Shown one piece after another: positions 2,746 to 53,889 of a DNA stretch of 64,000 nt. The notes under the pieces are model-generated. The model saw only the letters and a list, made by a program, of their open reading frames with translations. It was not told the DNA's origin and made no database searches. Positions within the stretch are counted from its first letter, which is position 1, and each line of letters begins with the position of its first letter. The stretch is from Sphaerolaimus hirsutus (taxonomy: Eukaryota; Nematoda; Chromadorea; Monhysterida; Sphaerolaimidae), in assembly GCA_964036195.1 (NCBI GenBank), contig OZ038450.1, positions 6,698,701 through 6,762,700 on the forward strand, in the 5' to 3' direction. The position numbers were made by a program, and so were the translations under genes.

Positions 2746-5700
2746 CCGCCTGTGGGCGATGCCAGCTGCACCAGCATTCTTCATTTCATGGCCACGAAAG
2801 CCATCGACCCCAGTGACATGGAGCTCACCAGGTGGCAGTCCCGCACCCTGTAAAGTGTAGAGTAAAGTGTAAAATGTCATTCAAATTTGTCAAATGTCAT
2901 TAAAAATGTCAAAAGTTCAATAGTAAATTCTTTTTTATTATGTATTTGAATTGACATTTTGCTTGACATTTGACACTTTACTTGAAACTTTTCGGGGTGC
3001 GGTACTGCCCCCAGACGAAATTTGAAGCTGTTTCGGTTCGCTTGCGAAGCTTGGAAGAGGAATAGAATCGAATTTGATCAAAAATTGCACACGTTTTTCT
3101 GCCAGGGCTTCACCTCGTGTGATTTAAAGAGTGATGCCAAATGTGGTTTGTTGTGAAACGATTGTTTCAAGTGACAAATTTTTCGAAAAAGTTTGAAATT
3201 CTTGTTCTAGAGCACACACACTAGTTGACATCAAAATTCGTGTCAACTAAACTCAACCAAAGATTCGTTTATTGTATGATTTCAAGTTTCCTATGTGAGC
3301 ATACCTATATGGAGCAACATAGTTGATTTTATATAGTGACATCTAATTTTCATTGTTTCTGTTAGGTGTACTGCTTTTAATTGTTGTGTTTTTTAGTTGA
3401 CATTCAGTTGAAACGAATTTGCGATGACAACAAGTGTGTGTGGGCCCAAAAGTCACAATTGACATAGTATTTGAACGTTTTTCTGATCGTGAACTCGCCC
3501 CATGCCCCTGAACTTTCGCATTTTTTCTTTAAAAACCCAGACGTGCTGATTAGCTACATCAACGTTTCCTCTTCGCTGTTGGCAATCCGCCAAGATCCGT
3601 TGGGTGCCGAGGGGCGTCAATTCTACACAAAAATGCTGCCGGTCTTGTTGAAGCACCGGTCAACGAAGGTGTACAGGGCGGCGGCCGAGATGGCGGCTCT
3701 TGCTTTGAAAAATTTTCAACGCGATAAGGTTAGATTTTCTTTATATTGTGCATGTCAGGGGTCTCCAGGATTTTGGCCCTCGCGGCGGCTGGATAGATAG
3801 CAAATCGCTCCTCCGGAGGGATAGATAGCTGAAAAAAATTTCTGGGGGGGGCTGGCGGGGGCACAATATATAGGCTTTTTCAAGGTTGAGAAGGCAGAAA
3901 GGGGAAAAAAATCGCTAATAATCAGTCAAAAGTAGCCAAAAGTAGGTATAAAATGGCTAAAAATAGGTATATAACCATGTATATAGCCGGAAAGCATGAT
4001 TTTGAAGGTGAAAAACTACAAAAAGGTGCGAAAATTGGGGATTTTGAGCGAAAATCGGTTCAACATTTCTCAAAAACCACTCCAGGTAGATAGATAGCTG
4101 AGCTATTTGGGGGGGTCTTTTGGGGTAGTAGCCGAAAATTTTGCCTCGGGATAGATAGATAGCTGAGCGGCCTCCGGGATAGATAGATAGCTGGCCGATT
4201 TGGGGGGGGGCAGCCCCCCCCAGCCCCCCCTAGGAGACCCCTGGTGCATGTGTCGCACTTAGTATGGAAACCTACCATGACCCATCTGAGTACTGAACTA
4301 AAATTTATGCATTTTATCGTATGTATAATATTTATATTTCATTTTTTCTATGGAATACTCAATTACTTAATTTATCACCAGATTTTATTAAGTAAATTAT
4401 GGTAGGATTCTGCGCCAAGTATGCGCGCCACTGGGCATATGTTTGTATCAGTATTTGATTCTTTTATATGCTCAGCCGTGTAAATAAAGTAAACATCTCT
4501 ATACCTTCAGGAGGCGGAGCTTGTGCAACTGATAGGGAATGCGGTAGAAAATGCTATCTCAAGCTGCGGGAAGAGTGACAGGGATCGTGTAATCAATTTG
4601 GCTCACGCAATACACGTGCACTTCCCCAGGCTACTGCTTCAGCCCAGGTTCCATTCAGGGTTCGCATATGATATGACTTTTCGATCTGAATTATTCGAAC
4701 ATTTTTTTTTCTTCAAAATATTCTATACAAAGTGTATTTTTCTCATCAATTTAGCTTAGAATCTGGTGCACAACTCTCTTTTGATTTTATTTATCAAATA
4801 TCGGCGACTTGGTGCCAGTCCCAGATCCTGTAAAATGCCGTGTAAAATGTCAAATATCATGCCAAATGTCAAAAGTCATGTAAAATTCCGTGCAAGATGG
4901 TCGCTGAGTTGCCATCTTGCAGGGAAGTTTCCATAACTTTCGACGCGTTCCATGACATTTGACATTTGTAAACGAAGCTATTAGTCCCCATTAGTATAAC
5001 CGATTTACTGATAATTACCGTTAATGTTTTTGTCAAATGTTTATATTCGATCGATACTAAAGATAAATATATTGTTGAAACCCTAACTCCACCAGAATCC
5101 TTTCATTATACCACATTTCAATCAATCATTCCCATGCACTTCAGAATCGCCACGCGCCTATTCGAATGTGCCGCTGGGGCGCAGGCGATTTTTCTCACGC
5201 GCTGCCTGCAAATCGCCGATGCAATGATCACTATTTCTGTGCCGTCTGCTATTCAAATGGAACTTGATGGGCCACGGGAAGGCCCCGCGGCACATTTGAT
5301 CAAGGCTATTAATCTTCAGAAGTGTCTTGGAAGTGGGTAGGTTTGATTTGGGACAGTCCCGCACCTTGTAAAGTGTGATGCAAGATGTCAAAGGTTCGGT
5401 AATTAAATCATGTATATCAACACATTGCATAACATTTTACACATGACATGACACATTACAGGGTGGGGAGCTGCCAGCTGGCGTTTTCCTTGGTTTTTTT
5501 TTAAAGCATCTCTTAATAGACTAGCGGACAGTCCTGCAGCCTGTAAAAATATAATTTTAAGTAGAAAAATGTCAAATGAAATTCGTCAAATAAATAGCGT
5601 AGTGCCTGTCGTCAAACCTCTGCCAAAAATAATCCCCCAGGGGAATTATTCGAGTAAATACGGTAACCCCCATCCACCGTAATCCACCGCAGCACGGAAG

Positions 5701-6898: not shown

Positions 6899-9800
6899 GT
6901 TTCTTTTGACTGGTGCCTGTCCTATACCCTGTCAAATGTCAAATGTCATGCAAAGTGTCAAAAGTCGTGTAAAGTGCCCTGCAAATTGGTGACTGAGTCG
7001 CCATTTTCAGGGCATTTTACATGACTTTTGACACTTTGCATGACATCTGACATTTTACATTGCATTTACAGGTCTGGGACTGCCTCCTGATGTCTTTGGG
7101 CTTTATGTGGTACAAATCGAATTGCACATGCAAATGAAATGTCTGCGTTAGCATTCGAGTAAAGTTTATCGAATTGTTCACATACCTGGTTACACATTAC
7201 GCTGACCAATCAGCGCGTAGAAAAGCCACTAATTGCGACAAAACGCTGGCATTTTAGATACTCCATTTACACGTGCAAATTCATCTGCAACTAAATACTC
7301 TATAGTTATTTCGTCATATTATTTCGTTTTTTTCTATGAAATAATTAATTACGAAATTTATCACAAGATTTCATTCATTCAATTATGGTAGAATTCTGCA
7401 CGCACTTTGCGAAAATTCAACCAAAATTCAACCCACACCCCCAGGGCCGTATCCAGGGGGGGGGGCGGGGGGGGCTGCAGCCCCCCCCCCTCCCGGGGCG
7501 AGACCAGAAAGTGACCGGAAAATGTGACTTTTTCAATGTCAGCGTCAAAAATTTTGCGCGCAAGCGCGCATTCTTCACCAGATATAAGGTATTGTCATCA
7601 GATTTGCAAGGTATTGTCATCAGATTTGCTCCATGTGGCCGCAAATCGCTATAAATACACTCAATGTTGACCTTTTCGCTGTTTTGTATGTATATTTACA
7701 TACATATACAGCATTCCATGGCGCTAACGCCAACGCCATGGCGTGGCGCCTACTAATGGCGCCATTCAGCCACTATGTAGCTAAAATTTTCGGGGGGGGG
7801 GCTGAGCCCCCCCCCCCCTCGCCGGCCTCCGTAAACAAGCAGCCCCCCCGCTCAAAAATCCTGGATACGTCCCTGCACACCCCCCACAGGCGGCCCGAAG
7901 CCGTTGCTCCTGGCGACGATGGCGGGCGGCGAGTACGGCGGCGGTCTGTTCTCGCCCACGCAGGCGGCCGGCGGCAGCGACGCGTCCCCGGAGGTCACTT
8001 CTACTTTGGCCGCTTTGGCGCAGGGCAACGATCCGGCCGCTCCGGCTGCTGGCGTTCATGCTGCTGCACGTGCGAATGATGGAGGTGGTGCGTGATCGTT
8101 TTTGCAGTTTGTGTGCATGCCGTATTTCCTCGAAATACCCCCAGGGGTTTATTTTTCAGATCGAAAATTTTGTGGATGTTTTTCGAGCGGCCTTATTCGA
8201 GGGATGTTTCTTTTCGTCAGAAATTTTTAGTGAAAGTCATAGTAAAGAATATGCTTTTACATACCCAAAACCGGTACTAAATGCGACCAAGAGGATATTT
8301 TTATGTGTACATATCAACTGGTACATTGCTACACAAACTAGTCTATATATTTACAGCTACGATGCAAATTGACCGCAACGACACATCATGTACATATATT
8401 GCATACATGATGGACATCATTCTAGACGGGGGTATTTCGAGGGGGGTTAATTCAAGAGGGGGATATTTCGAGGGGGGTTAATTCAAGAGGGGGGTATTTC
8501 TGGGATAAACACGGTATATATTTGTGCATATCAGGGCCGTATCCAGGGGGGGGGGCGGGGGGGCTGCAGCCCCCCCCCCTCCCGGGGCGAGACCAGAAAG
8601 TGACCGGAAAATGCGACTTTTTCAACTTCAGCGTAAAAAATTTTGCGCGCGAGCGCGCATTCTTCACCAGGCATACGGTTATAACCATCAGATTTGCTCC
8701 ATGTGACCGCAAATCATTATAAATACACTGAATGTTGTGCTTTTTGCTGTTTTGTATGTATATTTACATACATATACAGCGTTCCATGGCGCTGACGCCA
8801 ACGCCAATGGCGCCATGGCGTGGCGCCTACTTATGGCGCCAGCGCCATGGCGTCATTCCGCCACTATGTACCTAAAATTTTAGGGGGGGGGGGCTGAGCC
8901 CCCCCCCCTCGCCGGCCTCCGTAAACAAGCAGCCCCCCCCGCTCAAAAATCCTGGATACGTCCCTGGTGCATATGTTGCGTACTGTTGCAGACGACCAAT
9001 CGTCGTTGACTGGCGCCGCGGCAAGACTATTTCAACCGAGGAAACAGGCAGTGACCGCATTGAGTTCTGACAGGCGCGCTGGAGGCATGCGGAGACCATT
9101 GACACAGCAAGGTGCTTCGAAGTGACTAGTTTCGAAAAACAATTAGTTAACTATCGCCTCGCGTATAGACATTTGAATAATTATTTACAAATTTGAGTAA
9201 ATATCTATGTAATATCAAAATGATTCGAAAATTTCGCAAGCCACAGATGTCCGAATCTCTTTCAACATTTTGCGCAGAACTGAGCGCATTTGAAGAGCTG
9301 CGAAAGCTGCGCCGTCGCGTCGACCAGACGAGCATTTCGTCGGCACATGATAGGAAAGTCAGCTTTATGAGAACGGCCATTCACAGGCGCCAGAAACAGA
9401 TGGTTGGAATTTTTGATAAAAATACTTTCTGCTTTTTGGCAAAAATACATTAAAAAATGAAATTTCACGACCCAGACCTTACGGGAGCGGGCGGGGCTTC
9501 TCGCGGCGCACTCAGTTTCGCTGTGCCGGACGTACAGGTAGGGTTGTACAAACAAATCTTTTTTTTCAAAACCTATGTTTTTTTAAGATCATTTGTTGAC
9601 TTTGAGATTTGAAAAGCCTATTATTTTAGAAAAATGCCATTTGGATGAAGCTTTGTTGCTTCAAATGCCTTGTTGCTGTAGTGTTCTTAAAAATATCAGA
9701 TTTTTTTAAACCAGGGTTTTTTTAAATCAGTTTAAAAAATTCAGGTGCCGTCCCTACATATTTACACACAGGTACGGCGACCTGCCCGACATCGAGTTGA

Positions 9801-12800
9801 GTCATTCGCAAGTGCTCGACGCCGTGTTGAATCTGGCCGAGCGGCAGGCGGCATTTGCCGCGCAGCTATTTACTGACGTTTGCGTCGCCGTGGTCAAGGC
9901 TGAATATGACAGGCAGTCTGGGGAGGAGATGAAGTTGCGGGTACTCAGGTCTGACTGTTTTTTGGTATTGTGGTCTATTGCGGGAATTTTGGGTGATTGT
10001 CAGTTTGGTATGGAACTATTGACTTGGTCTTGTCAAGTTTGGAAGTCGAGTTTTTTTCTTCGTTTTTTTCATGTATTCGTGTAACGAAAAAGTATTAAAA
10101 TTACGATATATCGAGATATCATATCGGATTAGGAATTTCGTACGTTTCTATTTCGAATCTCGACATAGTATATTTTGTGACAATTATAATAAAAAAATAA
10201 TATGTAATACTAATATATATTTTAACTTTCCCATTTTATAACTTCCAATCTTAACGATATTCACGTTTTTTTCAGAGACTTCGCCTCGGCTGTCGATTGC
10301 GTATTGTCCACGAGATCAAGACTTTATCCGCCATTGATCCACTCCTTACTGGTAACATAAACACCTGAATAGAAACCCCACGGCAATTTTCCGACACATT
10401 TCTCCACCCCCAGCTAGCCCTACATTCGGTGGTAATACGGTACAACCGCGTGGACCTGGTGAATGCCGAGGTGATATCTTATGCGGCCGAGCAGCTGATT
10501 GGTCAGATGGCGGGCGCCGTCACTCACGCAGCCATAGCTCTGCTGGAACAGTGCTGGGACGCGTTGCCAGGGGCCAGTCCCAGATCATGTAAAGTGTAAA
10601 GTAAAGTGTAAAATGTCATGTAAAATGTCATACAAAGTGTCAATTGGCATGATAAATTACGTTCAGTAACAAAATCGTTTCTTTTGTGTTTTGATTAACA
10701 TTTTACATGACATTTGACACTACTTTACATTTTACAGGGTCTGGGACTGCCCGCAGATGTCTCTGGTGACCAGCTGTGTGTGGGAAATGATACGCCAGCA
10801 GCTAAACGCCCCAGGCTAGAGGACGAATCGATTTTGCATCCGCACGTGATACTTATTTGCTTGGCCAAGTGAGTTTAAATACATGTACTTGTCGCTTAAA
10901 TACAGGGCATTCAAAATTCAACTGAGCGATGATTTATCTGCACTTTACCTCTTTATGGATGTTACACTCTCTTTCATTAAATTCGGGGGGGGGGGGGTTA
11001 TCATACCACTTGTGGTATAACGAGGGGGGTTAATTAAAGGGGGTACTTCGATCGAGAAACTACGGTATTTACACTACACATTTGCACTGCAACCCCCACA
11101 GACTGTACCACGGCGCGGGGGATGATGAGAATCTGTCGGCCACCTACGACCGCCTGTTCTCGGCGCAGCGCCACAACGCCGCGTACTCGTCTGCGCACGA
11201 GGCGCTCCTTGCAGAATCACAGGGAAACTTGCAACTGGCGTGGGAGAAATGCAATCAGGTTGGCGGGGGTTGGGGCGCCCAGTGTGAAAATGTGTAAATG
11301 TGTCTGATTTTTTATCTGATTTTTATTCAAAAATAAATTTTTAAACATTTATTATTTTTTATATCAGGACATTTGGAAAAAAATCGATTTTCTCCTACCC
11401 TAGTCATTAGTTCCCTTATCGAAATTTATCACTTCACTTACAATATCACTGCATGTAAAAGATGTATCAGTGTCTTTTAGTTGACGTGTATACGGGATTT
11501 GCATTATGACAGCTAAGGAATGCTTCATTCCAGTTCACTAAAGTGCCAACTTCAGTTGACCGACAGTCGTCCTTCCTCCCCAGGCACTGTCAACCTTACA
11601 AACCGACTCTGGCACTGTGCCAGAAAACGACAATTGGACCAGTTCGTTAATCGAATCGTGCCGCTTGCGCGCCTTGCATTCGCTCGGCGACTGGGCCACT
11701 CTGAGGCACGTTTGCATGCAGACCCTTCGTGCCGAATTCGGTGATTCTGATGGTGACGTCATGCTCTCGCTGAAGCCCTGGAGGGAACTCACCATGGTTG
11801 GCGTGGCTTGATGAATTTAGCTTTCCAAAAATCTGGGGAATTATATTTTTCAAAATAATATAAAATATAAAAAAATGTCGTTTTTATTAACATCTTCACT
11901 AGGTAGGTTTTTCCAAAGAGATTTAATTATATTATATTTATAAGAAGAAAAAATAGAAATAATTTTTTTCCTTTTGGAGGATTTTCTGAGATTATATTTT
12001 CAGAAAAGCATCCATTTTAGGAACTCTAAGCGGATTTTGATATTGTATGTTTTTCCCTTTGTATGTAAAATATTGTCAAGTTGAAATTGTAGACACCCTA
12101 CGTGTATGGATACATCACGTCGTGTGTGAATGAGACAATCGAGGATGGTGACTCGGATGAAACGAAGCATTTTGCCCAGCTCTGCGCTCAGTGGATGCAC
12201 AATGATGAGATTTGCACTACATTGCAGGTGGATGCATTTTTATGACTGGTTTATCTATGACGACATTTTTTATAGGTTTTTCCATTGCTATTCTATTTAC
12301 ATGTGATTTTGATTAATTATATTTTTCACACGCAGGCCGAATATCCATTAGAATTGGGAATATGGGGTGTGGCATCCGGTCAATTGTCCGCCACCAAAAT
12401 TGCCACATTTGCTGAGTATGCAGTGATGCGATTATTACAGGTGAATTTTACCATTTTGCATAAATGTATATTTCGTCAGGGTCAAACCTGACTTGATATT
12501 TCGGAACTACCGCTAAGACTGTCACACATTCGGGAAACGGATCTATTGTGATGAAAAATAGCTATAATAAAAAATTTGAAAAATAGCATAAAGTTGTTCG
12601 TTTTTAGATTGGCTATGGTAAATTTGAATATGAACTGCAATCAGTAGATTACGTAGTATACTCACTAACAAATGCCATCGGTAATTTTTTGGTCAGATTT
12701 TTTCAAACTGGGGACGTATTCAAGGTGCAGGTCTAAATACATGTGTGACACCTTCCCCATCCATCACAGAGGGGCGGAGTTTATCAGTGGTGTATTTTTC

Positions 12801-18800: not shown

Positions 18801-21800
18801 ACAGCGACGACTTATTTAAACTTTTGATGAAAATTGCATGCGTAATAACTAGCAGTTGGCACGCTTCCAGCGGGGACCACGCGTGCAGGGTGTAAAGTGA
18901 TTGGAGTATAACAAAGAATAAACTCAATACCTCATTCCTAATAGCTGAACTTCCACAGGCCTTTCACCCATCATACGCGGCGCGTCTGCAGCGCATTCTG
19001 GAGCCGTCGCGAAAGTTTTCCTTGCGCGACGACTTGCTGCCGGTGCTGTGCGAACTGCAGGGCGACGTGAAGAAATGGACCGCGGCGACACAAATCGCCA
19101 ATGCCGGCGGCAAGGTGGAGTTGTCCAAACTGAGTTGTTGGCTGGCGGAATTTGATGGAAGTAATGCTGACGGGTCGCCTGCGCTGTTGCAATTGCCTGG
19201 TGAGCTGGTGGCCGGTTACAAAAGTTGACAAGTGAAAAATTATGAATGGAAGTGGAAAGTTAAAAGACAAGTAAATTTAGATGTGACAAGTAAAATTGCA
19301 ACTTTTCACGACGTTTTACTTGCTATTTCACTTCTCACTTCTAAATTTACTTTTCTTTTTGCTTTTGAGTTGACCTTTCACCTCCTACTTCTCAATTTAG
19401 GTATTTTTATTTTCACTTTTTACTTTCACTTTAAGTTTTTTTACTTCTCCACTTGCGGAATTCTCCCTGTTTTTCTTTGCTTTCTTCCACCGATATTTTT
19501 GCGCTTTGATTCTTTTGCAATTTTAATCATATTTATCTCGTATTTATATAGGCCAGCCGTCGAGCGGCCCCCCACTTTTCGTGTGCAATTTCGAACAGCA
19601 AGTGAGCAGGATGCAGTCGCTGCGCGCCCCGCACGTGCTCAAGATGAGAGCCGACGACGGCAAAGTGTATCCATTTCTCATTAAGGTACTGTTTTTGTAT
19701 CCATTTCTCATTAATGTACCGTTTTGTATCCATTTCTCATTAAGATACCGTTTTGTATCCTTTTCTCATTACGGTATTTTTTGTATCCATTTCATCTGAG
19801 TGCCTGCAATATACATCATTCTGATCGATCAGATGGGCGAAGATCTGCGGGGCGACGCGCGCATCGAGCAAATGTTCACTTCGATGAACGAGATGCTTTC
19901 GCGCGGCGAGTGCGGCAAGCTGCAGCTGTCCATCGCCACCTACGCAGTGGTGCCTCTCACTCCCAGGTGTGTTTATACGGGCAGTCCCAGACCCTGTAAA
20001 ATGGCATTGTGTCCTGTAAAATACCCTGTAAAATGCCATGTGTATCCAAATCTTATAGTATCATATCCCAATCTTTGCTTTTTGCATCCAAATCTATTAG
20101 TATCAAATCCAAATCTTATAAGTTTTGGATACGATACAATAATATTTGGACACACATGACGATTTACAGGGTCTTTTACATCATAAATATTTGACACTTT
20201 ACGTGGCCTTTTACATGGTCTTCACGTGACACCTGACATTTTGCGGGGTCTGGGACTGGCACCAGTCCGCGTTATTTCCTGCCGCTCAAATCTTAGCCAC
20301 GAGAGCTCGGATTGCTTTGCAGGGTCGGTGTGATCCAGTTCTTGCCCGACGTGATTTCCATGAAGGAGCTCATACGCGAACAGATGTCCGCTAAGGAGCG
20401 CGGCCTCACCGCGGGCGAAGTGTGAGTGTGTCCATTTGTGTCTCGATATTGATCTTCGTTGTTCAATATGTTTGATATTCGATATTCGATACGGAAAAAG
20501 TCGATATTCGATATTTGTCATGATTCTATGTAAACATGGATATTTGATGCGATGTATCGTGCCAGCACTGGTACTGGCACTGCTGTCTCCTGTAAAAGTC
20601 ATTTCTTCGTTTTTCGTCACTTTATTCCAATTCAAAATATAACAGTTTGATCACTTTTATATCTGCAGTTGGTCCTCGTACTTCCTGGAGCGCTGCACTT
20701 GGCCCAAATCCAAGATATCTGATTCGAAAAAGAAAAGCATCGATCACAAGCGCGCGTTCACTTCCACATTGGACAGGGGCGACTTGGCAGTGCGCCAATG
20801 CTTGCAGGAGGCCCGCAGCAAGTTTCACGGTGATTTACTCAGCCGGGCGATTTTGGTCCGCTGTTGGTGAGTTGTGCTTTGCGCTCTGTGTCACGAATGA
20901 TGATGTTACTGGTGATGTTTATTGAATGCGATCATTTTAGTGGCATAAAATCGAAAATTGTAAAATATTCCAAAATTATTGTAAAATTCAAAGACTAGTT
21001 TTGTAAAAAATTCTACATTCGAATAGTCATTTTACAAAACAAAAACAATTTGATATTTATACACTTTTCAAATTCACCCATCATTTGATAGCCTAAAGCG
21101 TGAATGTACAGAAACATAAATACGACAATATGCATTCTGCCATCGTTTTTGTGCAAAATTCAATGCAGCAAATTGGGCGGCAATTCAAATCACTTTTTTG
21201 CCAGGTGTGCATCCAGCTACGTGTCGGCGGGGCGGCCGCAGCTGGTTCGCTCGCTGGCCGCGCTCTCGGCCGCCTCGTACGCGCTCGGCATCGGCGACAG
21301 GCACCTGGCCAATCTGCTGGTGCACGCCCGCTCCGGCACCGTGGTCGGCATCGACTTCGGACAGGCGTTCGGTACGTGTGTGGTTTCGTGTGTGGTATAG
21401 GCTTTGCGTTTGTGTTTAGCTCCAGCCCACGAGTGGGGAAAACACGGTATTTTGTAAATCAAAGTAGTGTTGGAAAAAAACAATGCTACCAACACTAATC
21501 CAAGTGGTTTTTGTTGTTACGTAACCATTGTTTTTAGTAAAAGTTGTTAAAACTATTGCCAAACCTACCTCGAATAAGCGCTCGTGTTTAGTGATGTAAA
21601 AGCGCCATGTCGCTTTTGGCGCTTGGCGCTAGCTTAATATGGCGCCATGGCGCTTGGCGCCAAAGTACTGGTACCATTTGCAGCACTCCTCGCAGTCCCC
21701 TTCCCAACTCTATTTGCCCACGCCAGCCACGGGCGTGCAGACGTTGCCCATCCCCGAGCTGGTGCCGGTGCGCCTCACCGAGCAGCTGCGGCGTGCAGTC

Positions 21801-23873
21801 GGCCCCCACGGGTGGCACTCGCAGGCGCCCTTCTGCCGCTCCCTCTGCGCCGCCTGGCTGGCCCTCAGGCAGCATAGACTCCCTCTCATGGACTTGCTGC
21901 AAGTCTTCGTTAGGGAACCACATCTCGATTGGATTGTGCGTTTTTTTAATTTTTTTTGTTTTTGTACGGTTTGCGCGGTTTCGATAACTCCACCTTAAAT
22001 AGCGCACCGTGACAGCGGTAGCTAGAAAATCCCCCCACCATACTCCCATGTCTTACGTGAAAAATCGTTGCAAAACTTCTTTTGGAAACTTACGCATCAT
22101 TACAATAAGCCCGATGAAAAACTTGCCACCTGGGGGGCTTATTCAAGCACACCCATTCATTTGCACACGCAGAGCTACGCGATGGTGACGAACAAGCTGG
22201 ACGGCAGCTCGGCGCCAGTCCAATCCGCGGCGCAGTCGAGCGCTACGAGCAGCGCGGCGGCCGGCGGCGCAGGTGCCACTCCCAGACCCTGTAAAATGCC
22301 ATGTAGAATGTCAAATGTCATGCAAAGTGTCAATAAGTCATGTAAAATGCCCTGGAAAATGGTAATTTTCTTTACTGTTCATTTGCCATTTTACATGACT
22401 TCAGCCATTTTGCATGACACTTGACATTTTACAGGGCACTTTACAGTGTCAGGGAGTGCCTCCAGATGCAGTCGTCTGGTACCCCGCTGCAAAACTGCAC
22501 GTCGTAAGGAGAAAGCTCAGTGGCGCCCATCCAGCTGACGTGTTGTGGTTTGTCGGGTTTTCGGAAAATGTATAGGGTTCGCAATTGGCAGTGGATTCGT
22601 AGGTATCGTCTTTTGAACTGGAAAATCGTTACCTTTCTGTGGACTCTGTAACTTTGGTTCTGAATGGCCCTGCGCAAACTAGTTTTCACACGAAATTTTG
22701 AAAACTCATAAGTGCGCTTTGAACGTGTTTGAGTTTTCCACATTGAGTCATTTTTAATCTCAATCAACTGTAGTTGCGGCCACCTCATTGTAGAAAACTC
22801 AAATACTTTCTAAGCTGATTTGTGAGTTTTCGAAATTTCGTGTGAAAACTAGTGTGCGCAGGCACATTGTAACTAGGTCTCAAACGTTCAATTTGTGTTT
22901 TTGAGACCGAGACCGAAAAGGTAGGACCAGGGACGTACGCAGGATTTTTGAGCGGGGGGGGGGGGCGGATTGTATACGGAGCACGGCGAACTGGGGGGGC
23001 GGCGCCCCCCCCCCCCCTAAAATTCGGCCCTATAGTAAAGGAATGAAGCCATGGCGCTGGCGCCATTTGTAGGCGCCAGCGCCATGGCAGTATTGGCGTT
23101 GGCGCTGGCGCCAACGTATACTATATAGGTATATATTATGACCTAGGTATAGTTACTATGACCACGTGGGGCACTGTTATAATGCTGTTTGATCTGCTGA
23201 AATTATAAATTAAACAACGGGGTGGGGTTTGCGTGCTTGCGCGCCAAAAAAATTTCCAAAGTAAAACATCTACAAAATCGCTTTACAATAGTGCCATTCC
23301 TGGCAAATTTTTATGACCGGCCCGGGAACGGGGGGGCGGCCGCCCCCCCCCCCGCCCCCCCCCCCCCCCCTGCGTACGTCCTTGGGTTGAACTAAATGGT
23401 CGAGACCGAAAAGAAGACCGCGGTCTCGTTTGAACCCTTATTGTAACCCTAGTGACGAGTATTTACAGCCAGTATTATATTTACACCCTTCACTGGCATT
23501 TAATCTTCGCACAGAGGTAACGCTTTCCTGGCCTATTTTGCTCCCCAAATTAGGAATGAAAAAAACACCCACTATCTACAAAGCACATAATTTTTCAGCA
23601 TGGAGGTACGTGGCTGGCGATTTTGGCCGCAATTAGGTGAAAAGTATCAGAAATTGTTGCTCGCTAGCATTTTGTCATCAGCGAAAGACACTGACACTAA
23701 ATCGACATTGACTCCCGCGCAGCAGATGCAATCTCTGATTGGTTGGCCGCCAAAATTTGACACAATTTTTTTTGTCCGATTTTGAATTGTGATATCTTGT
23801 ACTTGTCGCAGATTTATCTACTGATGAGTCCTTGCTGGGTAGAATTTGGATGGGATGGGAACCATGGTTGTGA
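2746..23873 (+). CDS. PRKDC: DNA-dependent protein kinase catalytic subunit, C-terminal ~2,100 residues
   Basis: PI3K-like protein kinase that binds Ku-bound DNA ends in the nucleus and drives non-homologous end joining. I trace 42 exons with GT-AG borders; their phases all agree and sum to 6,297 nt (2,098 residues plus TGA). Order: HEAT-type helices, a short linker with TQ sites, FAT domain, kinase domain, regulatory segment and FATC. Diagnostic stretches are RYGDLPDI, YPFLIK, GEDLRGDARIEQMF, GIGDRHLAN, GIDFGQAF, LPIPELVPVRL and the C-terminus ESLLGRIWMGWEPWL, all matching DNA-PKcs rather than ATM, ATR or mTOR. About the first half of the protein (human is 4,128 residues) is left of the window. 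Many introns are occupied by transposons, and three are themselves single MITEs. Exon lists are in the segment entries. A second, partial, inverted copy lies at 54909-58111. Confidence 0.95.
2832..3014 (+). mobile_element. Introner MITE forming a complete PRKDC intron (first)
   Basis: The exon ends CTCACCAG, the element begins GTGGCAGTCCCGCACCCTG, and it closes with GGTGCGGTACTGCCCC plus a second CAG, after which the exon resumes with ACGAAA. Removing the element and one CAG copy restores a continuous frame reading ELTRRNLKLFRF, which aligns with human DNA-PKcs without a gap. The donor GT comes from the element; the acceptor CAG is the target duplication. Confidence 0.88.
3756..4243. mobile_element. 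hAT-type non-autonomous element, CAGGGGTCTCC ends
   Basis: Inverted ends CAGGGGTCTCC and GGAGACCCCTG, with a perfect 8-bp target duplication GTGCATGT at 3748-3755 and 4244-4251. The interior has repeated GATAGATAGCTG blocks and G and C runs, and no coding frame that looks real. It starts 27 bp after the donor of PRKDC exon 3. Relatives: 13171-13482, about 32760-32900, 37200-38100, 43690-43970, 52204-52690 and 53051 to the gap. Confidence 0.85.
4809..5540. repeat. Degenerate introner-family fragments in two PRKDC introns
   Basis: Family ends are recognisable at about 4809 (GGTGCCAGTCCCAGATCCTG), at 5350-5475 as a pair facing each other, and at about 5528 as a single end. They lie inside introns between exons 4 and 6 but not at the splice borders, so they are older or ordinary intronic insertions. 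Exon 5 (5145-5336) lies between them. Confidence 0.6.
6913..7086. mobile_element. Introner-family MITE inside PRKDC intron 9
   Basis: The left end GTGCCTGTCCTATACCCTG is preceded by CTG at 6910-6912. The right end GGTCTGGGACTGCCTC is followed by CTG at 7087-7089. The element begins 15 bp inside the intron whose donor is at 6899, so it does not itself define the intron. It supports a 3-bp CAG/CTG target duplication for the family. Confidence 0.75.
7442..7875. mobile_element. G-rich hAT-type element, CAGGGCCGTATCCAGG ends (copy 1)
   Basis: Ends CAGGGCCGTATCCAGG and CCTGGATACGTCCCTG with a perfect 8-bp target duplication CACACCCC (7434-7441 and 7876-7883). Long G and C runs sit just inside both ends, and a GCGCCATGGCG-rich palindromic core lies in the middle. 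The right duplication together with the following CCACAG forms the pyrimidine tract and 3' splice site of PRKDC exon 10. Apparent reading frames in it are repeat-derived. Confidence 0.88.
7890..9537 (+). CDS. PRKDC: PRKDC exons 10-13: linker with TQ sites and basic helix
   Basis: Exons: 7890-8084, 8992-9111, 9278-9402 and 9476-9537 (residues about 504-671). Exon 10 is Gly/Ala-rich low complexity (MAGGEYGGGLFSPTQAAGG) and exon 11 ends in PLTQQ. The position matches the human linker that carries the ABCDE autophosphorylation cluster, so these T-Q pairs are candidate PIKK target sites (inference). Exons 12-13 restore strong similarity: EELRKLRRRVDQ, then LCRTYR running into RYGDLPDI. For exon 12, phase requires the AG at 9277 (GCGCAG) rather than the earlier CCACAG. 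hAT-type elements end 14 bp and 25 bp before exons 10 and 11. Confidence 0.85.
8532..8966. mobile_element. G-rich hAT-type element (copy 2)
   Basis: Same family as 7442-7875, with perfect 8-bp target duplications GTGCATAT at 8524-8531 and 8967-8974. It ends 25 bp before PRKDC exon 11. Similarity to copy 1 runs through the whole interior (GACCAGAAAGTGACCGGAAA near the left end, AAATTTT followed by G runs near the right). Confidence 0.88.
9772..19199 (+). CDS. PRKDC: PRKDC exons 14-32: region from GDLPDI through the FAT domain
   Basis: Exons: 9772-9948, 10276-10351, 10414-10570, 10757-10868, 11102-11258, 11584-11796, 12093-12227, 12336-12440, 12882-13014, 13593-13695, 13949-14111, 14416-14602, 14976-15335, 15399-15595, 17449-17577, 17734-17804, 17862-17952, 18024-18173 and 18959-19199. 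They encode helical TPR/HEAT-like repeats of the FAT domain that clamp the kinase. Landmarks: RDFASAVDCVLSTRSRLYPP, ICLAKLYHGAGDDENL, SSAHEALLAESQGNLQLAWE and AFHPSYAARLQRILEPSRKF. Intron 10571-10756 is one introner MITE and begins with GG rather than GT. The 63-nt interval 15336-15398 is open in frame, so it could be retained. Confidence 0.9.
10571..10756 (+). mobile_element. Introner MITE forming a complete PRKDC intron (second), altered donor
   Basis: The exon ends GCGTTGCCAG. The element begins GGGCCAGTCCCAGATCATG and ends GGGTCTGGGACTGCCCG followed by the duplicated CAG. Joining CCAG to ATGTC keeps the phase (ALPDVSGDQL). The border dinucleotide is GG, not GT. The first GT that is in phase is at 10589 (GTAAAG), 18 nt inside, which would add six codons. 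Confidence 0.8.
13171..13482. mobile_element. hAT-type element in PRKDC intron before exon 23
   Basis: Begins CAGGGGTAGGAAAGG and ends GGAAGACCCCTG, flanked by perfect 8-bp duplications CACTCCAC (13163-13170 and 13483-13490). The interior has C-rich tandem blocks (CACCAAACCCCC) and GATAGATAGC-type motifs in the opposite orientation to the copy at 3756. It ends 110 bp before exon 23. Confidence 0.85.
14834..14886 (+). repeat. tRNA-like fragment (box A and box B), probably SINE or tRNA pseudogene
   Basis: GTTCCAGCGGACAGGGCGC resembles a D-arm/box A, and GTGTTCGATTCCCGC is a good box B and T-loop. The flanking GCCGCTG and CTGTGGC could pair as a weak acceptor stem. The anticodon arm is too short for a working tRNA. 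It lies in the intron before PRKDC exon 26. Confidence 0.4.
16012..17390. mobile_element. Composite repeat with GTTGTTAAAA ends and (GGGACC)n blocks
   Basis: Fills most of the largest PRKDC intron (15596-17448). The outer ends are inverted (GTTGTTAAAACGTATTTACG at the left, AAGTTCAGTACTTTTAACAAC at the right). Inside are two nested elements, 16234-16453 and 16914-17113, that start GGTTCAAACGGGACC-like and end GGTCCCGTTTGAACCC-like. Their cores are GGGACC hexamer arrays. Related outer ends are at 42913-43409 and 50055. Confidence 0.65.
18671..18906. mobile_element. MITE with inverted GTTGGCACGCTTCCA core
   Basis: Contains GTTGGAAGGGTGCCAATGAT and its inverse GTTGGCACGCTTCCAGCG about 190 bp apart, then ACGCGTGCAGGGTGTAAAGTG. 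Relatives: 24206-24440, 31628-31868, 51845-52078 and 54342-54576 (the last inside the inverted duplication). No coding capacity. Several apparent 100-150 residue reading frames on both strands are only this repeat. Confidence 0.7.
19552..21935 (+). CDS. PRKDC: PRKDC exons 33-38: protein kinase catalytic domain
   Basis: Exons: 19552-19685, 19833-19966, 20323-20421, 20669-20866, 21205-21371 and 21727-21935 (residues about 1657-1970). The ATP-site lysine is in KVYPFLIK, which ends exon 33 right at the donor. Exon 34 starts GEDLRGDARIEQMF. The catalytic loop GIGDRHLAN and the metal-binding GIDFG are both in exon 37, so the copy looks catalytically intact. Two details differ from human: Gln follows DFG where human has His, and the exon 37/38 junction encodes AFA rather than AFG (the inverted copy encodes AFG). 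Exon 38 continues LPIPELVPVRLTEQ to VREPHLDWI. Confidence 0.95.
19672..19795 (+). repeat. Tandem repeat seeded by the exon 33 / intron border
   Basis: The last bases of PRKDC exon 33 plus its donor (TATCCATTTCTCATTAAGGT) are repeated about five times with a period near 30 bp, running from the exon into the intron. The second unit carries another donor-like ATTAATGTACCG exactly 30 nt downstream (GT at 19716), in frame. Confidence 0.85.
19978..20265. mobile_element. Introner-family MITE inside PRKDC intron 34
   Basis: Left end GGGCAGTCCCAGACCCTG, right end GGGTCTGGGACTGGCACCAG. It lies within intron 19967-20322, 11 bp after the donor, and carries an extra AT-rich insert of ATCCAAATCTTAT-type repeats that makes it longer than the intron-forming copies. 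Confidence 0.75.
22173..23873 (+). CDS. PRKDC: PRKDC exons 39-42: regulatory segment and FATC tail
   Basis: Exons: 22173-22272, 22466-22547, 23599-23741 and 23812-23873 (TGA at 23871-23873). Exon 39 is Ser/Ala/Gly-rich. Exon 40 (VVWYPAAKLHVVRRKLSGAHP) matches the human segment after the kinase domain. Exon 41 has GEKYQKLLLASILSSAK, and exon 42 is the FATC motif ending GWEPWL. The intron between exons 39 and 40 is exactly one introner MITE, and the join G|AT across it is required to keep the human-like frame. The last intron before exon 41 holds an ACTAG-type MITE and a G-rich hAT element. Confidence 0.93.
22273..22465 (+). mobile_element. Introner MITE forming a complete PRKDC intron (third)
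   Basis: Exon 39 ends GGCGCAG. The element begins GTGCCACTCCCAGACCCTG and ends GTCAGGGAGTGCCTC followed by CAG, and exon 40 begins ATGCAGTC. The phase-1 join gives AGDAVVWYP, which aligns with human DNA-PKcs. Internal CATTTTAC and GTAAAATG blocks are inverted. The same intron is preserved in the inverted copy at 56315-56507. Confidence 0.9.
22928..23384. mobile_element. G-rich hAT-type element (copy 3)
   Basis: Begins CAGGGACGTACGCAGG and ends CTGCGTACGTCCTTG, flanked by imperfect 8-bp repeats (GGTAGGAC and GGTTGAAC). G and C runs near both ends differ in length from the inverted copy at 55398-55853, which shifts local reading frames. Confidence 0.75.
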
Positions 23874-24892
23874 TTTGTGATCTAGCTTTATAAAACAAAT
23901 TTTTGTACTCCGCGCACCGCATGTTATGCATTTTCTGGATGAAACACTATCATGACGTCATCATTAATACACTGAAAATTTTCCAAAAAATGTAAGATTT
24001 CATGCGCGAAGCGTATGTTTGTTGCTGTCGGCTCCGCTTTTTCTTTTTGTTTTCTTTTCTTTTTTCTGGTACATGAGTGCATAAAAAGTGGGTACATGCT
24101 CGCGCATTATCGACTAAAACATGAGTAATTTTACGCGCATACTTAGCGGTCCCCAGACTAGGAATGTGCCGTGTTACGTGATCTTGATTGAACTCCTTTG
24201 TACAGTTTTTATGAATGCCCGAGCACTGATTTATGTCTAGTGTTGGAAGCGTGCCAATGATTGTTAAATCATGCGATTTCCATAAAAAGATGTAAAAATT
24301 TATCGATGTGAATATGGTTATGAATAACCTTATAACAACAATCAATTTTGTGATCTTTTTATGAAACTCGCACGCGTTAACTATCGTTGGCATACTTCCA
24401 ACGGGAACCACGCGTGCAAGGTGTAAAGTAACCGGAGTATAGTGTATTTGTCATTATTGTCATATTGTACATATTTCAACTTCATTATTGATTTGTTTTT
24501 AGCCCAAAATTTATGCTTCTGCAAACTCTCATCGTTTCCACATTTGATCTAGAATGACTCCCATGGAGAATGGATTCCATTGCATAAAAGCACCCCTTGA
24601 ATTGCCATTGAAATTCATGAACATCTCAATGGAAAGTTTGCTATTGAATGTGAACCTATTCGTTACGTATATGAATATCAGCCAACTTATAGTCACTTGA
24701 TCGCGTTGCGTTCCGCGGCCATTATATGTAAGGCTGATTGAAGTCCTGCGTCGTTCGCTCTTGTTCGTATAGTACGCAACTGGTGATTTGGAAGTTTGCC
24801 AAGCTCACATATTGTGTATCTCAACCGGTGATGCGCATGTATCCAAATCTGTTCTTTAGGGAGAAAAAGGAGGATATCTCTGGCTGTTCCGA
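23874..24892. other. Intergenic between PRKDC and COA5
   Basis: Holds the PRKDC 3' untranslated region, a GTTGGCACGC-type MITE (24206-24440), and about 450 bp of unique sequence before the COA5 start. I see no other exon and no clear promoter element. Confidence 0.6.
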
Positions 24893-26851
24893 ATGTCTGA
24901 TACGGGAGTGGCTGGCTCTGCCCAGAGCGAACACGCCGCCGAGAAGGTAATATTTGTGACGTTTACCTTTCTTACTCTAGTTGCGCTGTATTTTCTATGT
25001 TTTGTCGTTGTTTAGATTCTAGCCTAATTTACTATAGAATTTATGCGCAAGGGTAAATATGTTGAACTAAAAATAGTGAAAATAGAATCTGGCATTCGCA
25101 GGCGGTCTTCGTCGATGAAGGGGATTTGGAAAAGTACCAAAAAGCGCACCCGGGCCGGGCGTGCGACCAGCTGCGCTACGAATTGAAACGGTGCATGCTA
25201 GACACCGATTGTGTGCGGGTTTGTCGGAAACATTTTAAATAGGTTTGACGGGCTATCACATTATGGGTACCTGCAGATCCGGGTATGCCAGGGCAAAGTT
25301 CCCGTTGTTAATTCCTTTTTCGGATTCAGGATTTGGATACATACATAATTTTTATACTGAATGTACTGTACTGTACGACAACCCCAGGGGTCGCTGAGTT
25401 TCAAAAAGGTATACAATCCGGGGAATGTACGGCTAAGGGGGGGCGATTTTGCCTACGACGACGCCAGGGTCGCTGATGCCAGCAGACTGTCGCTTTTACA
25501 GCTATCCTACGGTGCATGAATATCAAGGGAACTTTTCATACGTTTGTACAGAATTGCATGAATATCAAGGGAACTTTTCATACGTTTGTACGGAATCAAA
25601 CTGCACGTGGCGCGACCGCTAAAGTGGAACTGCACACGTGCAGTTTTTATACTTAAGCCCAGTTAACAGCGAGTTTGTTAACTGAGCTGTGGCGCAGTGC
25701 GTGAGCTTGCGCTTCCCGCGCGAGAGGTCCTGGGTTCGTTCCCGGGGCCTGAGAGGTCCTGGGTTTTCTCCCAGGGCCACTTCTCTCGTTCCCCGTGCCA
25801 CTCTCCTCCCTCAGCACCGATGATTACACACGTCGGTGCTGGCAGGCCGCCGTCTAGCCTTCCAGACCGACCGTCCAGCTGCCCGGCCACTAAATTGCAT
25901 TCGAGTTTGCGCCTTAGGGCTAGTGATAATATTTCAGCCCTACCGTATTTCTTCTAATATAACGGCACGCTGGCAATAATATGGCAGATGGGAATTATGT
26001 TGGCAGAGTGCCAAAACGCAAATATTTGAAAAATGGGGTGGAAACATCCGACGTGTTCAGAATAATGGTTCAGGGATTGTTTCCAAACTTGGTTTTGTTT
26101 GAATCGATGCTCTGATCTAAAAATGTTGCTATGTTTTATTAAAAATAGGTATTATGTTTTATTAAAAATAGGTATTACAATAAATACGGTACTTCATTAG
26201 GTGACACTTGTTTTCCAATGGAGTCTTCTTAACGCAGAGTGGCAAAACGCCGCGGCAGTGCTTCGACGAGCAAGATTCGTCCATTCCAGACCAGTGTTTC
26301 GTGCTGCGCTACCGTTTCTTCGAGTGCAAACGCTCCATGGTTGGTCTCGTCTTTGCCGAACTTGCGTGTTACATTCAAATGATGTATTTTCTGTGTGAAT
26401 GTCTAACGTTTTAAAAATGGTTATGGATATTAACTGCAGAATATTAAGCTGCTTTCTCAGAACAAATATGGCTGAGTCATTAAATACAGCTTTATGAGAC
26501 ACTACTACATCCACTACCTAGTGATGTTCCATAGGGCCCACAAATTCGTGTCAATAATATTTAACTAAATTTTGTCTGATTATGTGATTTCAACTTTCCC
26601 ATGTAATAGAGCTTTACTTAATTGTATATCGTGACACTGTTTTGACTCTTTCTGTAAAGTGTGACGCTTTTAATTTTTTTTGTGTTATTTCAGTTGACAC
26701 GGATTTCGATTTATAAGCCCAAACGTACGAAGAGGGTTACAGTTTTGTTATATCCAAGATTATAAAAACTACTTATGGCATATTCACAGCGCACGATTTT
26801 TTTCAGATCGATATGCGCACTCGTTTCCGCGGACGAAAGTGGGATACATAG
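24893..26851 (+). CDS. COA5: Cytochrome c oxidase assembly factor 5 (PET191 family)
   Basis: Small twin-CX9C protein of the mitochondrial intermembrane space needed for complex IV assembly. Four exons, all joined in phase 0: 24893-24946, 25102-25218, 26238-26339 and 26807-26851 (TAG), 105 residues. Cysteines 39 and 49 and cysteines 77 and 87 form the two CX9C pairs (CDQLRYELKRC and CFVLRYRFFEC). C55 and C65 match the other conserved cysteines. The tail RTRFRGRKWDT matches the RFRGRKGY end of human COA5. The N-terminus is about 30 residues longer than in human, and its start Met is chosen as the only one in frame in exon 1. Intron 2 carries a tRNA-like sequence and a 43-bp tandem duplication. 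Exons 1-2 recur inverted at 53564-53889. Confidence 0.93.
25514..25600 (+). repeat. 43-bp tandem duplication in COA5 intron 2
   Basis: Two adjacent near-identical copies of a unit beginning TGCATGAATATCAAGGGAAC and ending with CATACGTTTGTAC. No coding role seen. Confidence 0.85.
25684..25756 (+). repeat. tRNA-like sequence in COA5 intron 2
   Basis: Box A-like TGGCGCAGTGCGTGAGC and box B-like GGTTCGTTCCC are spaced as in a tRNA. A T-arm CTGGG/CCGGG and an anticodon-like stem CTTGC/GCGAG can form, with TCC in the anticodon position. The acceptor stem and D-stem are poor, so this is more likely a tRNA-derived SINE head or pseudogene than a working tRNA-Gly. Confidence 0.4.
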
Positions 26852-26968
26852 AATTTCGTTCATCTAAATATCTATAGTCATTAGGAATTGTGATTTTGAA
26901 GTTAACAAACAAATTACTCAGTATTTTTAATTCAAATTAATTTAATTCAATAATTAAATCCGGCCAAG
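26852..26968 (+). promoter_or_regulatory. 117-bp COA5-TTC7 spacer
   Basis: A/T-rich. It contains ATTAAA at about 26954 as a possible polyadenylation signal and a TTACTCAG that could serve as a splice acceptor about 45 bp before the TTC7 start. The start context is GGCCAAGATG. There is little room for an independent promoter plus two untranslated regions. Confidence 0.4.
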
Positions 26969-32272: not shown

Positions 32273-32427
32273 GTGGGTTGGGTGAAATAGGGGAAAAATA
32301 GGTGTACAGGCAGATAGGTATATATTCACAAGTAGCTGAAAATGGACAATAAGGCAATAAGCTGAAATGGACAATAATTCACATTCAGTCTTGTGTGAAA
32401 TGTGAAAATGTTTCAAAAGTTTGGCAA

Positions 32428-35400
32428 TTAGCGATTTTGAGCACACTTTCTGGCATTCTGCTTGTGCGCGAGATCGTTCGACGCGTCAGTGGGCCGCCGC
32501 AGCGGCTGCAAGTCCGCCGCCCGCCGCTGCAGGGCTTCCACTTCAGGCCGGAGCTGATTCAGTGTCTGCTCAGTTTCCTGTACGCGTTGACACGCCGTAA
32601 CATTAGGGACAGATGTGCATAACGGTCCGGGGAACGACGCTGTACCGGTGCACAAGTTTACCCGGTACACATATAGCAAAAGTAGTAAAATGGCGTCATA
32701 GTTCAGTGTACTTTGGCGCCTTCAAATGACACCATTCCATCACTAATCATGTGTATAGTTGTCCTTTTTGGAGGGGGGGGGGGGGTTTGTAGGGGCTCAA
32801 TATATAGGGTCTTTCAAGCTTTAGAAGGAAAAAGGGAGGAAAATCGCTAGATAAATATGTAGATAGCTGGAGCGTCTTGGGATAACCCCCCTCCCATCCA
32901 ACCCCCTATACTGAACACCTGCAGTGCCCATGAAGACCCAGTGCTCAAGTACGGGGGCCGTACCTAAGCACCGGTGCTTACATTGGCACCGGATATTGCT
33001 ACTTTTGCACCGGGTAAACTTGTGCACAGGGTTCTAGCCCAGGGAACATTGAAAAAAATTCTTTCCAGAACTAACCCGCAATTGGCCAGCCAAAGCATTC
33101 AAGTCGGGTCCCGTTGAGCTTTCCAGATCTCGGCTTTTCTTTTCCTTGCCACCTTCCTCTGGTGCGACGGGCTCGGCGCCAGTTAAGACGGCCTTGACCC
33201 TGTTCAACGTATCCAAAACGGGGGCAAATCTGTCCCTGTCAAAGGAGCCGCACAGGTCCACAAGTGCGTCGCCGGCGTCAGCCAAACTGTGCAGTTTGTC
33301 GCGGTTCTCCTTGCCGCGCCGCAGTTGCTCGTCCAATTGAGACAACTTTTCGGGGTCGGCTGTTTGGTTGGATTTGCAATTTGATGCTTCGGCGACAGGC
33401 CACTTCTGCGGATTAATGAACTATGTGCAAGTTGTTTAGTAGGGATGGAAAAGGGCGGCTTTTAATTAACCCGAACCCGATGTCGAATCACATTTTCAAG
33501 CGCAGAACACACCTGCTCATTATCATAATCGGCAGCAGCATGCCGCAGTGCGTCTGTGTTATCAGCATTGCGCAACGCATCCTCAGCCAGGGGGCACTCC
33601 CAGACCCTGTAAAATGCCATGCAAAATGTCAAATGTCAAGCAAAGTGTCAAAAGTCATGGAAAATGCCCTGTAAAATGGCAAACGTACGAAATTTGATAT
33701 TTTCCATGACTTTTGACACTTTGCATGACATTTGACATTTTACAGGGCATTTCACAGGGTCTGGGACTGGCACCAGGTCGATCTGCTGCCTGAGCAGTCG
33801 CAGCAACTGATCCAGCTTATCGCTCAACTGTTGTCTCGCCATTTCACCTTGACGCTGGTCCAGCGCACAGCCGACGCCCCGGAACTTGTCCCGCATTCGC
33901 TGCACTTCTCGCAGCGGCCAGTCAAGCGGCAGCTCGGCGGCGATGTCGGACGCTGCGGCCAGCCGAGGCTCACAGAGCGACAAGTGCTCGCGTACGTCCT
34001 ACAAAATTCATAATGTTGTCGTCATCGATCAGTTACAGCGACGAGAAGCATGACAAACACTTTCAAGCATTTTTAAAATCAAACAAAAACAAATCATTTC
34101 CAAATGTTGGCATAAATGGTTGCCTTTGAAAGAGCCTAGTACTGTCTAGGGATGGACAAAAATGTGTTTTTAAAGACCCTGTTTGTTTGTTTTAAAAACA
34201 AACATTTTTTTAAACATGTTTTTTTAATAAAATGGGTTTTTTAAAGCTCCCAAATATGGTTATGGGTCAACATATACAGGTATATCAGACAATTGCCAGT
34301 ACTTTGTGATGCTAAATATGAGGGTGCACTGTTTCGCACATAAGCCTGTTTCGCAAATACGCCTGTTTCGCACATAGATGAAACCCGTTTCGCACAAAGG
34401 CCCGTTTCCCGGCACAAAGAACCGAGCACTAACACTGCACTGCGCACATAGGCCTGTTTCGCACATAGCACCAGTTATGTGCGAAACGGGCCTTTGTGCG
34501 AAACGGGTTTCATCCAAATTGCCAGCTTGCGCACAAAAAAAATGCAAATAACCCAGTGCATAAAACAAAAATAATTTGTTGATGTTTTAAAAAATGGTTT
34601 CGATGCCTGTTTTTAAAAAAAACAACAACTTTTTTTTTAAAGGACGGTTTAAAAACACATGAGCCATCCCTAGTACTGACCTTCAAATCTATCACTCGAC
34701 CATCGATCTCTCTCTGGCACTGCGCCAAGCCATCGTCGCACTGTGCCGCGGCGGCAGTGAACCTTGCAACCGAAGCGACCCGTTGCCGCGCCGCCGCGCC
34801 CAGCTGCCCGGCGCTCGCAGTCAGCGTGCCCAGTTGATAGGCTAAAATATGTATTTAAAGTATTTAAAAAAGTATTTTCAAAATGTCATGGAACATTTCC
34901 AAGCAAAAATAGCCTTGGTGCCAGCACTTTTTTGAGTATTTTGCACCAATTTTACAGCCCGTTACATTCACACAAAATTGCGAGTGAGTGTGATTCACAT
35001 GAAAATGGAAATGAAAATGCTTTTACCATAGCTTTTTTGCTTGGACATGATTTTAAATGCTGTTATGCAAAAATTCACAACAAAAAATCAATATAAATAT
35101 ATACTATTAGTCGATTCCAATCAATATGGCCATGTGGTTTCAACATGGTTTCGCAACCTATAAACTGTAATCTTGATGAAAACCAGTCAACCAGGTACCA
35201 ATCCCAGACCGTGTAAAATGCCCTGTAAAATGTCAAATGTCATGCGAAGTGTCAAAAGTCTTGGAAAATGCCCGGTAAAATGGCAAACGTACGTGGGAGT
35301 GCCCCCAGTTGACATTGGGATGTCAACTGCACCAACCGGTTTTCATCAAGATTTAACTTGATGGGTTGCGAAATGTTCAAATGCACATGGCAATATTGAT

Positions 35401-53420: not shown

Positions 53421-53563
53421 TTCAGTATAAAAATTATGTATGTATCCAAATCCTGAATCCGAAAAAGGAATTAACAACGGGAACTTTGCCCTGGCATACC
53501 CGGATCTGCAGGTACCCATAATGTGATAGCCCGTCAAACCTATTTAAAATGTTTCCGACAAAC

Positions 53564-53889
53564 CCGCACACAATCGGTGTCTAGCATGCACCGTTTCAAT
53601 TCGTAGCGCAGCTGGTCGCACGCCCGGCCCGGGTGCGCTTTTTGGTACTTTTCCAAATCCCCTTCATCGACGAAGACCGCCTGCGAATGCCAGATTCTAT
53701 TTTCACTATTTTTAGTTCAACATATTTACCCTTGCGCATAAATTCTATAGTAAATTAGGCTAGAATCTAAACAACGACAAAACATAGAAAATACAGCGCA
53801 ACTAGAGTAAGAAAGGTAAACGTCACAAATATTACCTTCTCGGCGGCGTGTTCGCTCTGGGCAGAGCCAGCCACTCCCGTATCAGACAT
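53564..53889 (-). pseudogene. COA5 exons 1-2, inverted copy
   Basis: Exon 1 at 53889-53836 and exon 2 at 53680-53564, identical in translation to the primary copy (start MSDTGVAGSAQ; first CX9C pair). Exons 3-4 are not present because the copy stops at the gap. Confidence 0.9.

Follow-up and report, generated by a model that had tools for sequence, protein, structure and literature searches.

Copies of a short, hairpin-shaped mobile element, present well over a thousand times in the genome, were followed up in a 64-kb window (the whole stretch of DNA analysed, 64,000 nucleotides from the nematode Sphaerolaimus hirsutus, part of contig C1 in a genome of 348,482,957 bases and 762 contigs). We consider it very probable that these copies are introners, that is, non-autonomous foldback elements of the NuwaI (PIF/Harbinger-like) type with CWG as insertion site, which often land within coding sequence and would then be removed from the mRNA. 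The copies appear to have been caught at different stages of gaining a proper splice site. The origin of new introns, and the splicing of a fresh insertion before selection has acted, is an old open question, and this one animal genome carries hundreds of insertions of a single family at both kinds of target, each pair of target copies possibly preserving the 3′ splice site in its before and after states.

The elements end in GTGCCAGTCCCAGACCCTGTAAA and, reverse-complemented at the opposite end, in GGGGCAGTCCCAGACCCTGTAAA. An earlier reading of this DNA from its letters alone (the sequence-only reading) had proposed a genome search with the element ends, and this search returned 1,500 exact matches (757 + 743) to the 19-base end GTGCCAGTCCCAGACCCTG, compared to none (0 + 0) for the reversed GTGCCAGTCCCAGACCCTG used as a control. 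In 347,860 bases made up of the window and the retrieved loci, the count of elements flanked by equal triplets was 79, and their median length 183 bases. The flanking triplet was CTG in 43, CAG in 28, and another in 8, so that CAG or CTG flanked 71 of the 79; equality of the triplets was the selection rule for this set, while their composition was not selected for. The earlier description of elements of about 185 bp at CAG/CTG with a three-base duplication was thus borne out. The two ends are unequal, with GT at one and GG at the other in 57 of the 79 copies, most of the loci behind this count having been found through the GT end. A median of 78% of the 5′ half is paired with the opposite half, with 65 of 79 copies reaching 60%, and the predicted folding energy is −0.60 kcal/mol per base compared to −0.21 as the median of random stretches, of which up to 200 were folded; the copy in the CNOT9 gene folds 15 standard deviations below its shuffles (z −15). 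The family is a full-length foldback miniature inverted-repeat transposable element (MITE) of about 183 bp flanked by 3-bp CWG duplications. A three-base CWG target duplication is described as defining the NuwaI group of PHIS (PIF/Harbinger-related) transposons, found mainly in animals (PMC4482050), so the target that the sequence-only reading did not recognise had already been described. Target site alone places the family in this group.

To follow the coding context, flanks were joined without the element and without one target copy for insertions among 100 places on C1. These 100 copies were the first on the contig (0.97–15.8 Mb), a non-random draw found entirely via the GT end; for seven, no right end was found, 15 more had right sides fitting no single substitution, and in pairing the ends, preference went to right ends that had a matching triplet. 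With the tested locus left out of its training set of 14 exon pairs, a codon model called coding sequence at 30 of 93 usable insertions and, within these loci, at 154 of 2,929 random points, an enrichment of about six times (odds ratio 8.6, p = 3e-15). Open frames alone gave sense-only to antisense-only ratios of 9 to 10 (± 45 nt) and 23 to 11 (± 90 nt), and because they leave the strand unfixed, the codon model and homology were used instead. Junction frames were computed on both strands in sets of 139, 94, and more, and 38 peptides were picked by hand for Pfam searches, a choice by eye that may favour well-known proteins. Nineteen of the 38 gave at least one match with E ≤ 0.01, and in 15 the match spanned the junction. 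Dropping L073 (DUF4715, below the Pfam cut-off) left 14, and PDB searches added the junctions of one Na,K-ATPase and of a gene resembling DNA-PKcs (PRKDC), giving 16 insertions at 12 different gene loci where protein homology spans the joined exons, with the chemoreceptor pair L043/L044 counted once.

Nine of these 16 are gapless at the junction. The alignment to the human protein runs without a gap over 146 residues in CNOT9 (site at C1:10595875–10596052; CTG/CTG, upstream/downstream target copies) and, also gapless, over 138 residues in ATRX (CGG/CGG), 85 in cyclin Y (CTG/CAG), and 96 (CTG/CAG) and 75 (CAG/CAG) in two Na,K-ATPase genes, while Pfam matches are gapless over 50 and 42 positions at two OSCP1 sites and over 57 at one BCKDHA site; the ninth is the chemoreceptor, aligned to a paralogue. 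In six others, profile and protein lengths differ by 1 to 19 positions, a difference that was not localised: three more BCKDHA sites, a sugar transporter, and a nucleobase transporter span the junction with lengths off by 1 or 2, and in an AMP-binding enzyme the profile exceeds the protein by 19 positions over the matched stretch, which leaves an exact join undemonstrated there. These alignments indicate that the element coincides, border to border, with a predicted intron.

Signs of gain by insertion came from the chemoreceptor, where four paralogues (36–51% identical) are continuous across the site at which the L043/L044 pair is split, and where paralogue L099 aligns without a gap. In repeat DNA, L001 is an empty relative of the locus carrying the L047 element, with a single CTG and 75% identity over 114 columns. 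Judged from these comparisons, with contiguous paralogues at one site only, the copies are putative introns gained by insertion, which is to say introners. The claim of the sequence-only reading that a MITE family makes introns in this genome is thereby supported, by the 16 homology-spanning insertions, the paralogues lacking one intron, and the coding enrichment.

The orientation of the elements within genes was far from even. The GT end lies upstream in the gene sense at 15 of the 16 homology-supported insertions, the exception being in BCKDHA (L048, 4039–4230). Among the 30 insertions called coding by the codon model, the GT end was upstream in 21, downstream in 3, and of unclear strand in 6 (p = 2.8e-4). 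The three GG-first calls among the 24 were the fourth site of the window, L033, and L016 at 1887; the last is GT-first by homology and was misread by the codon model because its exon is short. A MITE unlinked to splicing should show no preference, and the preference for the GT end therefore supports an element that supplies the 5′ splice site.

At the other border, the duplicated target itself comes into play. Read in the coding sense, targets are CAG or CTG about equally often, and of the two CAG alone places AG at the exact border. The 16 supported insertions comprise 5 CAG/CAG, 7 CTG/CTG, 1 CGG/CGG, and 3 CTG/CAG pairs, and GT together with AG stands at the exact borders in seven of them (four CAG/CAG and three CTG/CAG, all GT-first). 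Genome-wide, pairs were counted for copies with exact 11-base ends and a length of 167–197 bases, some duplicated loci included. The 424 copies gave 221 CAG/CAG, 119 CTG/CTG, 61 CTG/CAG, and 23 CAG/CTG, the imbalance between the last two (p = 4e-5) persisting when repeats spotted by eye were left out (57 vs 19, p = 1.5e-5). Single-end counts leaned the same way, with 883 CAG and 610 CTG downstream compared to 744 and 646 upstream (odds ratio 1.26, p = 0.003). Read GT-first, the 100 sampled copies held eight changes from CTG to CAG, three from TAG to CAG, one from CCG to CAG, one from CAG to CTG, and four from CGG to CAG, two of these four being one duplicated locus. In cyclin Y and one Na,K-ATPase, the upstream copy still encodes a conserved leucine and the downstream copy is CAG. 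The surplus of CTG/CAG suggests that selection turns the downstream copy into AG, and most simply the downstream target copy would be the 3′ splice site, with AG favoured in it. By eye, GT..AG borders can be assigned to all four ordinary introns with both borders seen, of which the DNA-PKcs-like gene has two and BCKDHA and OSCP1 have one each.

These observations can be put together in a mechanism. An element carrying its own GT at one end would be tolerated mainly when that end lies upstream, and the downstream target copy (CNG) would serve as the 3′ splice site. Insertion at CAG would yield a canonical GT..AG intron at once, leaving the protein unchanged, while insertion at CTG or CGG would yield an initial GT..TG or GT..GG border that is probably used less well, until a single later substitution turned the downstream copy, by then intronic, into CAG and so made the intron canonical. 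The hairpin stem should bury internal decoys, GTAAAA and TTTTACAG, and hold both borders together. We tentatively propose, at less than even confidence, that the hairpin and the 5′ GT guide exact removal, so that hundreds of GT..TG and GT..GG introns are spliced from the moment of insertion and are then matured to GT..AG by selection. If this is true, the genome holds every stage of intron birth side by side.

A number of observations weigh against these interpretations. Eight of the 16 supported insertions (CTG/CTG or CGG/CGG) break the GT..AG rule if removed exactly, and one lacks GT; the CTG/CTG class makes up 119 of the 424 exact-ended copies. Such CTG/CTG and CGG/CGG copies sit in highly conserved genes (CNOT9, ATRX, BCKDHA, and the transporters), where removal would leave GT..TG or GT..GG. 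Insertions with no upstream GT exist, namely the BCKDHA copy in L048 (4039–4230) and the DNA-PKcs-like copy at 10571, and the copies in L033, L045 (2335), and L058, where no homology crosses the junction, are probably GG-first. The codon model prefers the plus strand at the fourth site of the window (9.1 vs 3.2), which would make it GG-first as well. CTG/CAG copies were not clearly older than CTG/CTG copies, though in small numbers they look somewhat more diverged: the median nearest-neighbour score was 77.9 for CTG/CAG (n = 8) and 87.5 for CTG/CTG (n = 25), and right copies with and without AG showed no clear difference in age (p = 0.36). In the chemoreceptor family, a further paralogue on contig C6 has an interruption around residue 80, and a weak match on C7 extends no further than residue 85. 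No transposase with introner ends was found, one copy among the matches to the DDE domain PF13359 having been compared.

In one rival explanation, the full hairpin, and not the dinucleotides, would set both borders, in a structure-guided removal resembling SOS splicing or the nonconventional introns of euglenids that cuts the element out exactly with any target copy. The hairpins are long and their ends meet near the borders, the protein is exactly continuous at CTG and CGG sites, SOS splicing of transposons is described in animals (PMC13247085), and paired-end euglenid introns have been proposed to derive from MITE-like elements (PMC6221363). The bias toward an upstream GT and the excess of downstream AG are unexpected if the dinucleotides are irrelevant, and we regard this explanation as possible though doubtful. 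Canonical splicing at inexact sites, in which CTG copies would use a nearby GT or GC together with AG and a few residues would be added, lost, or replaced, is unlikely in our judgement. In-frame canonical pairs do occur in 7 of the 8 CTG or CGG cases tested (the eighth, in OSCP1, returned none, probably since the exon ends inside the tested stretch), and a typical copy contains one such pair, a GC at +2 and an ACAG 19 bases short of the border, whose use would keep the frame and insert seven codons. No single pair is best in all genes, however; the best choice changes the length by a net 0 to 4 residues, and where this figure is 0 or 1 some residues are replaced. Seven added residues would hit conserved stretches of CNOT9, ATRX, and the transporters, and this explanation does not predict the downstream AG excess.

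The CTG/CTG copies might instead be, in many cases, young, harmful, heterozygous, and unspliced insertions on their way to being lost, as their slightly closer resemblance to their nearest neighbours, relative to CTG/CAG copies, would suggest. A visibly diverged copy nonetheless persists in BCKDHA (L048, read as CTG/CTG with its right end one base short), and CTG/CTG equals CAG/CAG (7 vs 7) in coding GT-first sites by the codon model; we hold this explanation to be improbable to much the same degree as inexact splicing. Far less probable still is that old introns were later invaded by the MITE. Many copies in the window do lie outside sequence recognised as coding, as invasion would allow, but the supported sites have the duplicated target with coding sequence directly on both sides, the aligned joins show no leftover intron sequence, and four paralogues are uninterrupted at one site.

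Introners are a known class. As in the introners of Gozashti et al. 2022 (PMC9860276), the repeated element here inserts into exons and would itself be the intron; inverted repeats with short target duplications are described for many families there, and in a Chrysochromulina introner, likewise, the element brings the 5′ splice site while the duplicated target supplies the 3′ one. In that survey, introners are reported from no more than two animal groups, and Harbinger is not mentioned in the main text. Compared to the introners it describes, the present family differs in its animal host, its full-length foldback, the nearly one-half of targets without AG, and the downstream AG excess. The CWG duplication is shared with NuwaI elements, whose autonomous candidates are described as mostly carrying a DDE transposase and a Myb/SANT protein (PMC4482050). 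The introner elements of the dinoflagellate Amoebophrya are described as carrying direct repeats at their borders and inverted repeats able to bring the intron ends into pairing, with many of the introns departing from GT/AG (PMC7789003). Their borders are very variable, whereas in the present family the predicted border falls at the end of the element and insertions in coding sequence almost always have GT upstream. Animal introns largely off the GT/AG rule are reported from Fritillaria (PMC13326754), a tunicate in which 3′ AC and AT ends are common. SOS splicing also removes transposons from animal mRNA, and is described as a defence in which the pieces are joined by RTCB (PMC13247085); unlike that case, the element here sits in many genes as a predicted intron, and the upstream GT appears to matter. 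Among the open-access papers listed, titles and abstracts showed no animal introner family of this kind, and the one paper that came up for introners together with Harbinger was fungal. What looks new is the possible before-and-after record of the 3′ splice site within each copy.

Within the window, 21 merged intervals resemble the family, 3,344 bases in total, and the features located there are listed in the table. The predicted intron at the first copy is 2832–3014 (GT..AG), with an open frame across the junction. No PDB entry matched the peptides across the junctions at 2832 and 10571 taken by themselves, and both junctions rest on open frames. The copy at 22273 lies just before a conserved WYP..RRKLSGAHPA segment, and the joined C-terminal exons match human DNA-PKcs (E = 7.6e-19) in an alignment that passes the element; extra low-complexity residues of the query beside the junction produce an alignment gap, so the exact border there is unproven. 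At the fourth copy, exact removal on the minus strand would take out 33588–33773 and end in TG, and the strand of the gene is unsettled because the codon model prefers the opposite one. The sequence-only reading had singled out these four copies as introns. They are indeed foldback elements between matching 3-bp copies, and of the three junctions compared by homology (2832, 10571, and 22273), only that at 22273 is crossed. Its proposal that the terminal repeat supplies the 5′ splice site fails at 10571, where the copy begins without GT, and its border of 33582–33773 uses an AG six bases beyond the exact end and would lose two codons. The rule it drew, in which a sense-strand CAG leaves one copy in the exon and provides the 3′ splice site with the other, holds for about half of the insertions; it missed the CTG half without a 3′ AG, the polarity, and the downstream AG excess.

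Features of the 64-kb window that belong to the element family or to the DNA-PKcs-like gene (positions are those of the window)
Feature	Position	Strand	Details
Putative introner 1, DNA-PKcs-like gene	2832..3011	+	GT-first, 180 bp; CAG copies 2829-2831, 3012-3014
Further family copy	4812..4968		sequence likeness
Further family copy	6913..7086		CTG on either side
Putative introner 2	10571..10753	+	183 bp; CAG copies 10568-10570, 10754-10756; 5′ end GGGCC
Further family copy or compound	19978..20262		sequence likeness
DNA-PKcs-like C-terminal exons	21240..22535	+	homology; gene ends near 22.5 kb
Ordinary DNA-PKcs-like introns	~21372-21726, ~21936-22172	+	readable as GT..AG; borders placed by eye
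Putative introner 3	22273..22462	+	GT-first, 190 bp; CAG copies; predicted intron 22273-22465
Putative introner 4, probable coiled-coil gene	33591..33773	-	GT-first; CTG copies 33774-33776, 33588-33590
Further family copy, partial match	35195..35295		sequence likeness
Further family copy	41633..41796		sequence likeness
Further family copy	50616..50775		CTG one side, CAG other
Further family copy	51250..51484		sequence likeness
Duplicate of introner 3	56318..56507 (56315-56507 as duplicate of 22273-22465; with flanks 56315-56510)	-	inside inverted duplication

The end of the DNA-PKcs-like gene is carried twice in the window, in an inverted duplication of almost 5 kb (20473–25361 and 53421–58307, 99–100% identical) that adjoins runs of N near 53.2 kb and is possibly an artefact of assembly. 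In the BCKDHA gene of L048, on the minus strand, a 376-base interruption lies between LNFSATLK and CPIIFF, its left border showing no GT before an in-frame TGA, and this is possibly a non-canonical intron of another kind. The profile search of the genome for PF13359 gave at least 163 matches, with 150 of 306 candidates scored. Most of the matches listed belong to one near-identical Harbinger-like family of over a hundred very similar members, for example L098 (C1:20512400–20516600), and most of these are about 190 bases longer than the domain and hold in-frame TGA codons, the excess probably being an intron. This family was considered as the cognate transposase and set aside, the copy compared having no introner ends.

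Contig C762 (L097) is mitochondrial, with ND2- and ND1-like frames on one strand and COX1, followed directly by ATP6, on the other. In COX1, AGA and AGG stand at positions which we take to be serine and AAA at positions which we take to be lysine; mitochondrial code 5 fits this gene, unlike those of tunicates, flatworms, and echinoderms. A tunicate host with splicing like that of Fritillaria was set aside because AGA here fits serine and not glycine, and a chaetognath host is unlikely because of the frame taken for ATP6, a gene that chaetognaths are not known to have. Elsewhere in the window, short tandem repeats of the GGGACCGGGACC type occur at two places (16236–17113 and 40540–41236), and a long tandem array with 24-base spacings and higher-order repeats occupies 58300–63950.

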